DNA from: Pyrinomonas methylaliphatogenes
GTDB taxonomy: Bacteria > Acidobacteriota > Blastocatellia > Pyrinomonadales > Pyrinomonadaceae
Assembly (NCBI RefSeq): GCF_000820845.2
Contig: NZ_CBXV010000008.1
Coordinates: 251,001 to 315,000 of the forward strand
Direction: 5' to 3'
DNA: 64,000 nt
In this document: one piece after another, positions 32,323 to 35,034 of the stretch
Layout of the letters: each line of letters starts with the position of its first letter
How positions within the stretch are numbered: the first letter of the stretch is position 1
Translations under genes and position numbers: made by a program
Notes under the pieces: generated by a model
Database searches by the model: none
Seen by the model: only the letters and a program-made list of their open reading frames with translations
What the model was told of the DNA's origin: nothing

Positions 32323-32895
32323 GTGGGCTCGAACTTGATCGCTTCCGCTGCCAATAGCTCATCAGAATTCAACAATTCGAAGCTGATACCGCTCTTCTCC
32401 GCCGAACAGATCCAAAATCGCATTCAGGAGATGGGAGCCGAGATCACGCGCGATTATGCTGGGCGCGAACCGCTGCTCGTCGGCGTTCTGAAAGGCGCCT
32501 GCGTCTTCATCAGCGATCTGATGCGCGCCATCGATCTGCCGCTGGCGGTCGATTTTATGGCCATCTCAAGCTACGGGAGCCAGATGCGCACTTCGGGCGA
32601 GGTGCGCATCATCAAGGATCTCGACACGCCGGTCGAAGGGCGCGACATCCTCGTCGTCGAGGATATCGTGGACACGGGTCTGACGCTCTCCTATCTGCTC
32701 GCCAGCCTTCACGCGCGCGGCGCGCGAAGCGTTAAACTGGCCGCACTGCTCGACAAATGGGAGAGGCGCGAGCGGCCCGTGCAGATCGATTATCTCGGTT
32801 TCAAGATCCCGGACGCTTTCGTCGTCGGCTACGGGCTCGATTACGCCGAACGTTACCGCAATCTGCCCTACATCGCCGTGTTGAAAGAGGATTGA
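32323..32895 (+). CDS. hpt: Hypoxanthine (guanine) phosphoribosyltransferase
   Basis: Salvages hypoxanthine/guanine to IMP/GMP with PRPP. The 190 residues contain PLLVGVLKGACVFISDLMRAI, the flexible-loop SSYGSQMRTSGEV, the PRPP motif ILVVEDIVDTGLTLSYL and FVVGYGLDYAERYRNLPYIAVL, all typical of the bacterial Hpt group. The start is a GTG at 32323 after AAGGGGA; an ATG-less N-terminal extension of about 20 Ser/Asn-rich residues precedes the core, so a later TTG start is possible. guaB, the other purine gene in the window, is 21 kb away. Confidence 0.94.
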   Translation: MGSNLIASAANSSSEFNNSKLIPLFSAEQIQNRIQEMGAEITRDYAGREPLLVGVLKGACVFISDLMRAIDLPLAVDFMAISSYGSQMRTSGEVRIIKDLDTPVEGRDILVVEDIVDTGLTLSYLLASLHARGARSVKLAALLDKWERRERPVQIDYLGFKIPDAFVVGYGLDYAERYRNLPYIAVLKED

Positions 32896-32931
32896 GAAGG
32901 AGTCTATCCATCCTGCGCCGAGACCGTGAGC

Positions 32932-32961
32932 TTGACAGCGCCTGCAGATCCAAGGTATAAG
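32932..32961 (+). promoter_or_regulatory. Promoter of the methyltransferase/MTHFR gene leader
   Basis: A consensus TTGACA (32932-32937), 18 bp, then TATAAG (32956-32961). The predicted start near 32968 would make a leader of about 165 nt that begins inside the first hairpin region. It is among the best promoter matches in the window. Confidence 0.65.
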
Positions 32962-33096
32962 CCACGTTTGACACGTGGTGATTTATGGCGACTTGCGGCC
33001 ACGTAAAATAAGCGGCTAAACAGCTCGGTGAAGCGCTCACCGTGAAACCATCGAAGTTTCATCGTGAAAGTCCCGCGTTGTTTAGCGCGGGATTTT
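32962..33096 (+). promoter_or_regulatory. Folded leader: candidate riboswitch or IS200/IS605-derived palindromic element
   Basis: Four hairpins in 130 bp: CCACGT-TTGAC-ACGTGG (32962-32978), CGGTGA-AGCGC-TCACCG (33026-33042), TGAAAC-CATCGAA-GTTTCA (33043-33061) and TCCCGCG-TTGTTTAG-CGCGGGA (33071-33092) with TTTTC after it. A second CCACGT at 32999-33004 can compete for ACGTGG, so two folds are possible. Position between a promoter and a methionine/folate gene suggests a cis-regulatory RNA ending in a terminator. The GTTTAG-looped end hairpin also resembles the right end of TnpB-type elements, so a non-autonomous remnant is the alternative. I could not match a known SAM, SAH, THF or cobalamin aptamer. 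Confidence 0.6.
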
Positions 33097-33135
33097 CAGT
33101 TTTAAAGAGCGCTTCGGAGCGATGAAGAGGTGAGC

Positions 33136-35034
33136 ATGGAAGCCATCCGCGAATTGATCGAAAGCGACCGCGTGACCATCTTCGATGGCGCGATGGGGAC
33201 GATGCTCTATTCGAAAGGCATCTACATCAACCGCTGCTACGATGAACTCAACCTCAGCCATCCCGATCTCGTGCGCGAGATCCATGCCGAATATGTGCGC
33301 GCCGGAGCCGAGATCCTCGAAACCAACACGTTCGGCGCAAACCCCTATAAGCTCCAACAATTCGGCCTTGAAGGCAGCTTGCGTTTGATCAACATCGCCG
33401 CCGTCCGTCTCGCGCGCGAGGCGGCGGGCGATCGTTGTTACGTCGCCGGCGCGATCGGCCCACTAGGCCTGCGTATCGAACCATACGGGCCGACCTCATT
33501 CGATGAGGCCAAGGAGATGTTCAAGGAGCAGGCTTCGGCTCTGCTCGAAGGCGGCGTCGATCTATTTGTTCTTGAAACTTTCTCCGACATCTCCGAACTG
33601 CGGCAAGCGATTCGCGCTGTGCGCGAGCTGTGCGATCTGCCGATCGTCGCGCAGATGACCATCCTTCCCGATGGCAACACGAGTTTCGGGACGACGCCGG
33701 AGATCTTCGCCGCCCGACTTGATGAATGGGGAGCAGATGTCATCGGGTTGAACTGCGGCGTTGGACCAGCCATCGTCCTAGCGGCCATCGAGAAGATGCG
33801 CGGTGTAACCAACAAGCCGCTTTCTGCACAACCGAACGCGGGATTGCCGCGCGACGTGCAAGGGCGTCAGTTCTACATGTGCTCGCCTGAATACATGGCG
33901 AAATATGCCAAACGCCTGATTCAGGCCGGAGCGCGTTTTATCGGCGGATGTTGCGGGACGACTCCGGCGCACATCAAGCAGATCGCCGATGCCGTGCGGG
34001 CCATCTCGCCGCGCCGCCAATACGTCGTCGTCCAAGACAAACCTAAACGGATCGAAGAACTGACGCCGGCTGATATCCGCGTCGTGCCGCCCGAAGAGAG
34101 GTCGCGATGGTCGCGCAAGATCACGCGCGGAGAGTTCGTTACGACCGTCGAGGTGCTTCCACCGAAAGGCTGCGACGCGAGCCAAACGCTCGAACAGATC
34201 AGACTGCTGAAAGCGGCGGGCGTCGATGCGGTCAACATCCCCGATGGACCGCGCGCACAAACGCGCATGAGCGCGATGGCGACCGCCCTGCTGGTCGAAC
34301 GCGAGATCGGATTAGAGACCGTCTTGCACTATTGCTGCCGCGATCGCAACCTTCTCGGCATGATGTCGGATCTACTGGGAGCCGCCGCGCTCGGTTTGCG
34401 CAACCTCCTGCTGATCACGGGCGATCCGCCGAAGATGGGCCCCTATCCGGATGCGACGGCGGTCTTCGACATCGACTCGATCGGCTTGACCAACATGGTC
34501 AACAAGCTCAATCACGGCCTCGATCTCGGCAACAATCCGATCGGGCAGCCGACCGCATTCTGCATCGGCGTCGGCGTCAATCCGGGCGCGCTCAACCTCG
34601 AGCATGAGATCAGGCGCTTCGAGTGGAAAGTCGAGGCCGGAGCGCAATTCGCCATCACGCAGCCCGTTTTCGACGTGGACCAGTTGTATGAATTCCTGCG
34701 CCGCATAGAACACGTGCGCATCCCGATCATCGCAGGCATCTGGCCGCTCGTCTCCTACCGCAACGCCGAATTCCTCCACAACGAAGTGCCCGGCGTGCGC
34801 GTCACTCCTGAGATCATGGAGCGCATGCGCAAAGCCTCGGAGAAGGGCAAGGAAGCGGCGCGCGAAGAGGGTCTCAAGATCGCGCAGGAGTCGCTGCGCG
34901 AAATACGCGACATCGTTCAAGGCGTTCAGGTCTCGGCGCCTTTCGGCAACGTGCGATACGCGCTCGAAGTCTTCAGCGTCCTGCCCGAGTTCGCCCGCGC
35001 GACAGAACGGATCGCGCTCGGCGAAAGGGCTTAG
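33136..35034 (+). CDS. Bifunctional homocysteine S-methyltransferase / 5,10-methylenetetrahydrofolate reductase
   Basis: 632 residues. The N-terminal half is a zinc-dependent homocysteine methyltransferase (FDGAMGTMLYSKG; zinc Cys in GLNCGVGP and GGCCGTTPAHIKQ). The C-terminal half, from about residue 330, is a MetF-type reductase (TTVEVLPPKGCD, VNIPDGPRAQTRMSA, LLLITGDPPK, QPVFDVDQLYEFL). This is the YitJ-type fusion of Firmicutes and others: it can make methyl-THF and methylate homocysteine, without a cobalamin domain. ATG 33136 fits AGAGGTG; GTG 33130 is the alternative. The folded leader upstream is the likely control point. Confidence 0.93.
   Translation: MEAIRELIESDRVTIFDGAMGTMLYSKGIYINRCYDELNLSHPDLVREIHAEYVRAGAEILETNTFGANPYKLQQFGLEGSLRLINIAAVRLAREAAGDRCYVAGAIGPLGLRIEPYGPTSFDEAKEMFKEQASALLEGGVDLFVLETFSDISELRQAIRAVRELCDLPIVAQMTILPDGNTSFGTTPEIFAARLDEWGADVIGLNCGVGPAIVLAAIEKMRGVTNKPLSAQPNAGLPRDVQGRQFYMCSPEYMAKYAKRLIQAGARFIGGCCGTTPAHIKQIADAVRAISPRRQYVVVQDKPKRIEELTPADIRVVPPEERSRWSRKITRGEFVTTVEVLPPKGCDASQTLEQIRLLKAAGVDAVNIPDGPRAQTRMSAMATALLVEREIGLETVLHYCCRDRNLLGMMSDLLGAAALGLRNLLLITGDPPKMGPYPDATAVFDIDSIGLTNMVNKLNHGLDLGNNPIGQPTAFCIGVGVNPGALNLEHEIRRFEWKVEAGAQFAITQPVFDVDQLYEFLRRIEHVRIPIIAGIWPLVSYRNAEFLHNEVPGVRVTPEIMERMRKASEKGKEAAREEGLKIAQESLREIRDIVQGVQVSAPFGNVRYALEVFSVLPEFARATERIALGERA

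Follow-up and report, generated by a model that had tools for sequence, protein, structure and literature searches.

A SAM-II aptamer and a predicted antiterminator in the leader of a homocysteine methyltransferase/MTHFR gene of Pyrinomonas methylaliphatogenes

The 64-kb stretch of Pyrinomonas methylaliphatogenes DNA analysed here (the window) contains a folded leader between a hypoxanthine phosphoribosyltransferase gene, which ends at 32895, and a bifunctional homocysteine S-methyltransferase/methylenetetrahydrofolate reductase (MTHFR) gene. The question was what kind of element this leader is and how it might control the gene behind it. In a preliminary description it had been read as a riboswitch of unsettled class with an intrinsic terminator or, alternatively, as the remnant of a mobile element. 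The features of the locus are as follows.

32932..32961, + strand: sigma-70-type promoter TTGACA-18-TATAAG, read directly; expected start site about 32967-32969
32965..33040, + strand: SAM-II (SAM_alpha, RF00521) riboswitch aptamer, cmscan score 49.1 bits (gathering score, 36)
32973..33004, + strand: aptamer hairpin P1, formed by ACGTGG (32973-32978) and CCACGT (32999-33004), from the cmscan alignment, the predicted fold and direct reading
33015..33028, + strand: switching strand GCUAAACAGC-U-CGG, the conserved ligand-pocket/P2 3′ strand and antiterminator 5′ half, from complementarity and covariation; CGG extension from the growing-transcript fold
33026..33042, + strand: spacer hairpin CGGTGA/TCACCG, from the predicted fold and direct reading; overlaps the aptamer 3′ end
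33044..33060, + strand: spacer hairpin GAAAC/GTTTC, from the predicted fold and direct reading
33071..33097, + strand: intrinsic terminator UCCCGCG-UUGUUUAG-CGCGGGA (33071-33092) and short U-tract, from fold predictions, apex complementarity and direct reading; 33073-33086 is the antiterminator 3′ half
33127..33138, + strand: Shine-Dalgarno-like GAGGTG and start codon ATG (33136), read directly
33136..35034, + strand: bifunctional homocysteine S-methyltransferase/methylenetetrahydrofolate reductase, PRK08645 type, from Pfam PF02574 and PF02219 and NCBIfam NF006396

The covariance-model search against Rfam that had been suggested for this leader returned RF00521, above its gathering score, as the single family in 32700-33300, even at E values up to 10. 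The match covered model positions 1-79 in full with E = 5.3e-8 over the whole 64-kb window, which overturns the earlier statement that no SAM consensus could be matched. The SAM-II hallmarks checked were the P1 stem and the conserved GAUUU, UUGC and GCUAAAnAG segments; GUGGUGAUUU, CUUGC, CCACGU and GCUAAACAG were all found in the cmscan alignment, so that P1 and the conserved segments are present. The P2 pseudoknot pairings (UUGC/GCGG and GGC/GCU) are possible, as judged by inspection only. A methionine/SAM biosynthesis gene lies downstream, namely the methyltransferase/MTHFR gene here (NF006396 score of the ORF, 770 bits) and metH at a second copy. Judged from sequence, the aptamer before the methyltransferase/MTHFR gene is clearly of the SAM-II class; the riboswitch with intrinsic terminator proposed earlier is thus retained, and the class left unsettled there is SAM-II. 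By family membership, the window RNA would be expected to bind SAM.

The -35 box TTGACA (32932-32937) is separated from the -10 box TATAAG (32956-32961) by an 18-nt spacer. When 131 related leaders were compared, TTGAC was similarly placed in 119, and the end of the -10 box lay mostly 10-14 nt 5′ of P1. A leader of roughly 168 nt is predicted, the ATG being at 33136, and its fold (z-score, -2.8 against dinucleotide shuffles, 2 of 200 of which were equally stable) contains four hairpins, namely P1, CGGTGA/TCACCG, GAAAC/GTTTC and the terminator. Direct reading and folding confirmed the promoter, the folded leader, its four hairpins, the terminator and both CCACGT copies of the preliminary description in their positions. 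Neither promoter nor terminator was called by a generic consensus scan of the leader, because TATAAG is without the required final T and the run of U residues is short. Both elements missed under these strict definitions are supported when leaders are compared.

In the DNA, the terminator reads TCCCGCG-TTGTTTAG-CGCGGGA (33071-33092), then TTTTC, and its short U-tract is AUUUUCAGUUUU. The loop UUGUUUAG complements the aptamer's own conserved strand. Pairing of GCUAAACAGC (33015-33024) with GUUGUUUAGC (33077-33086) is uninterrupted, one G-U included, and beyond a 1x1 mismatch CGG (33026-33028) pairs with CCG (33073-33075) of the terminator 5′ arm in the growing-transcript fold. Complementarity was assessed in 73 distinct acidobacterial leaders against 89 unrelated terminators from the fetched loci. 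Core-to-apex complementarity was higher than in 99% of the control terminators for 84% of the leaders and higher than in 95% for 90%; about 10% of the 73 lacked clear apex complementarity.

Most antiterminator pairs use invariant aptamer bases and are therefore unable to covary, and n of CUAAAnAG, which in the window is C33021 opposite 33080, is the one freely varying position. In the acidobacterial leaders, n and its partner were C:G in 65 cases and G:C in 5, with neither C:C nor G:G (the counts come from related leaders and are not independent events, and the G:C cases derive from few families). Divergent further leaders gave G:C 7 times and C:G twice, again without C:C or G:G, and mismatches G:A in 3 and C:T in 1; a few n positions stand opposite A or T. 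In the column test, 71 of 75 were paired at n against a shuffle maximum of 67, and outer position 14 gave 53 pairs against a maximum of 49. In folds of the growing transcript, the antiterminator pairs started once 33086 had been made, had probabilities of mostly 0.92-1.0 at 33086-33092, and were displaced by the terminator as the transcript grew from 33094 to 33098. Pairing of the core strand with the terminator region occurred at some intermediate length in 73 of 73 leaders, and in 0 of 40 replacements in each of 12 leaders when the apex was swapped for those of other terminators. By complementarity, covariation, folds and apex swaps, an intrinsic terminator and a mutually exclusive antiterminator with aptamer sequence are present.

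The SAM-II riboswitch is accordingly proposed as a transcriptional OFF switch, with an antiterminator, for the methyltransferase/MTHFR gene, and we give this reading a probability of roughly 0.87. Transcription would start a few nucleotides 5′ of P1, and the aptamer would be the first part to be made. In the absence of SAM, the aptamer strand GCUAAACAGCUCGG (33015-33028) would be free to pair with CCGCGUUGUUUAGC (33073-33086), which comprises the inner 5′ arm, the loop and the beginning of the 3′ arm of the terminator; with the antiterminator formed, polymerase would read through and the gene would be transcribed at low SAM. At high SAM, the strand would be sequestered in the ligand pocket and the P2 pseudoknot, the terminator at 33071-33092 would form, and the gene would be off. 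By analogy, SAM would be expected to raise termination at this leader. The OFF direction, which like the start site we infer for the window leader, is the feedback expected of a methionine gene.

The aptamer could instead precede a constitutive terminator, SAM acting through mRNA stability, Rho or translation. This would resemble Sinorhizobium meliloti metA, where no coupling to SAM is predicted for the terminator behind the SAM-II aptamer (PMC9373788), and would suit the full-length fold, in which the terminator is more stable than the antiterminator. The computed energies (-42.5 and -47.6 kcal/mol) serve only to order the competing hairpins, because Vienna folding ignores the P2 pseudoknot. 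However, the complementarity of the terminator apex to the aptamer strand is specific, the pairing covaries and folds first, and some 100 nt separate the aptamer core from the Shine-Dalgarno sequence, so that a constitutive terminator is improbable. Still less probable is the two-copy switch of the preliminary description, in which the upstream CCACGT (32962-32967) would pair with ACGTGG (32973-32978) in place of the P1 copy (32999-33004). The three sequences are present, the complementarity is real, and CCACG occurs at the same place in the sister Pyrinomonas genome, but the upstream copy stands directly behind the -10 box, within 6 nt, and precedes the expected start. With a start 6-8 nt past the box it would be transcribed little or not at all, most likely not, and CCACG is found there in 5 of the 131 related leaders, the sister genome included.

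The reading as a non-autonomous IS200/IS605-type remnant or a TnpB-associated RNA end, backed by hairpin shapes only, was rejected as having practically no probability. Apart from the SAM-II match to RF00521, which counts against it, a search for scattered copies in the genome (3.79 Mb in 16 contigs) returned only two matches, the window leader and the SAM-II aptamer before metH, and the terminator sequence occurs a single time. The copies in relatives stand in conserved position before orthologous methionine genes of metF/metH type: where a downstream ORF was present, 106 leaders stood before members of one connected gene family, in which metF-fusion and metH genes are joined by a common N-terminal methyltransferase domain. 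With this orthologous context and no dispersed copies, a mobile element is excluded.

Three SAM-II elements were found in the genome, each before a gene of methionine or sulfur amino-acid type. The second (50.5 bits, over threshold) precedes metH, and the third (28.1 bits) precedes a cystathionine-gamma-synthase/sulfhydrylase-family PLP enzyme of Cys/Met metabolism. RF00521 hits were obtained in 33 of 40 relatives, usually two per genome, and SAM-II stands before the same two genes in most Pyrinomonadaceae relatives. In a sample of the phylum, 38 of 297 genomes, mostly Blastocatellia, had hits, and a pattern scan of named genomes gave 107 stretches, mainly from Pyrinomonadaceae/Blastocatellia, plus Gemmatimonadota and Rhizobiales.

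The description of SAM-II from Agrobacterium metA places promoters immediately 5′ of P1 and reports terminators in many members (PMC1273637); the window leader shares with the metA element the aptamer, P1 and the GCUAAAnAG strand as well as the promoter just before P1, the terminator behind P2 and the association with methionine genes (PMC1273637). The published hosts encountered belong to Alpha-, Beta- and Gammaproteobacteria and to Bacteroidetes (PMC2258182), whereas the host here is an acidobacterium, and the acidobacterial genes are the MTHFR fusion and metH instead of the published metA/metX/metZ. No earlier report of SAM-II in Acidobacteriota was found in a search of mainly openly accessible literature. 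For S. meliloti metZ, termination control is predicted and a riboswitch-length small RNA was observed; as in the window, the SAM-bound form is predicted to permit an intrinsic terminator (PMC9373788). At Rhizobium loci there is a match between the aptamer 3′ strand and the 5′ arm of the terminator (AGACCGG:CCGGTCT), which points to a general switching logic common to Rhizobium and Blastocatellia. Unlike in Rhizobium and metZ, the Blastocatellia pairing has its centre in the terminator loop, and the strand it draws on is the ligand-contacting GCUAAAnAGC itself. A ligand-controlled pseudoknot with the terminal loop of the terminator has likewise been proposed to control termination in guanidine-IV (PMC10907184), where the ligand promotes loop pairing, whereas SAM should prevent it in the window leader.

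The riboswitch is thus of a known kind; its occurrence throughout an Acidobacteria group, together with the clear sequence evidence for the flip, is somewhat new. SAM-II has so far been described mainly from Proteobacteria and its transcription-control mechanism is mostly predicted; a large covarying leader set from another phylum yields a specific, testable antiterminator, and metF-fusion and metH are added to the SAM-II-controlled genes. The antiterminator evidence and the acidobacterial distribution are more useful than annotation alone. Bacillus subtilis yitJ, which we take to be the orthologous methyltransferase/MTHFR fusion, has a SAM-I (S-box) leader with the same ligand, OFF logic and transcription control, but an aptamer unrelated to SAM-II, and no SAM-I element was found in the genome of the window. 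Orthologous genes would then be under non-homologous SAM riboswitches, SAM-I in Bacillus and SAM-II in the window.

A divergent SAM-II-like element whose P1 is closed by TCCACG (pattern CGTGGCGATTTANGGCRACTTGCTCCACG; L227-L256) was observed in 47 of 162 Blastocatellia genomes, many copies being followed by metY-like or thrC genes; none of 13 tested elements reached the Rfam threshold (best, 28.4 bits). In SAM-II leaders of metY type, a conserved (A)TCGCCACGC lies shortly 5′ of the Shine-Dalgarno sequence and complements the P1 5′ strand plus L1 of the same aptamer (CGTGGCGATT); it occurs in L087, L241, L247, L248, L255, L246, L005/L088 (the own-genome C1 copy), L081 and L219. Other metY leaders carry AAGTTGCC, complementary to aptamer GGCAACTT. 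Complementarity near the ribosome-binding site exceeded that of shuffles at p<=0.05 in 10 of 18 metY leaders, and such an anti-aptamer element is possibly a second, translational or commitment layer. When it was sought in the window leader, the sole match, TGTTTAGC, was the terminator loop itself. Tentatively, and at slightly less than even odds, Blastocatellia may share a platform in which the ligand-contacting strand is the loop-invading antiterminator, together with a sub-threshold TCCACG subtype with a possible anti-aptamer layer near the ribosome-binding site; if so, SAM-II control in Acidobacteriota would be broader and more layered than described.

Tandem SAM-II units with separate terminators have already been reported (PMC9481103). 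Pairs were observed here in L032/L080 (G026), L033/L082 (G030), L031/L075 (G029), L030/L074 (G037) and L026/L066 (G033), each unit having its own terminator and, in most cases, an antiterminator strand that matches it; they precede thrC-like genes and, in one case, an SDR gene. Behind one pair (L080:772-3399) are encoded threonine synthase, a MoaD/SAMP1-like small protein ending in GG and an aspartokinase-like ORF, a gene set that may represent a thiocarboxylate-type sulfur route under SAM control. L002/L037 (the own-genome C4 copy, which precedes metH) and L038 have a terminator loop, CGTCCGA, that is complementary not to the core but to GCTCGG just 3′ of it, and a poor U-tract; the metH copy may therefore act differently or weakly.
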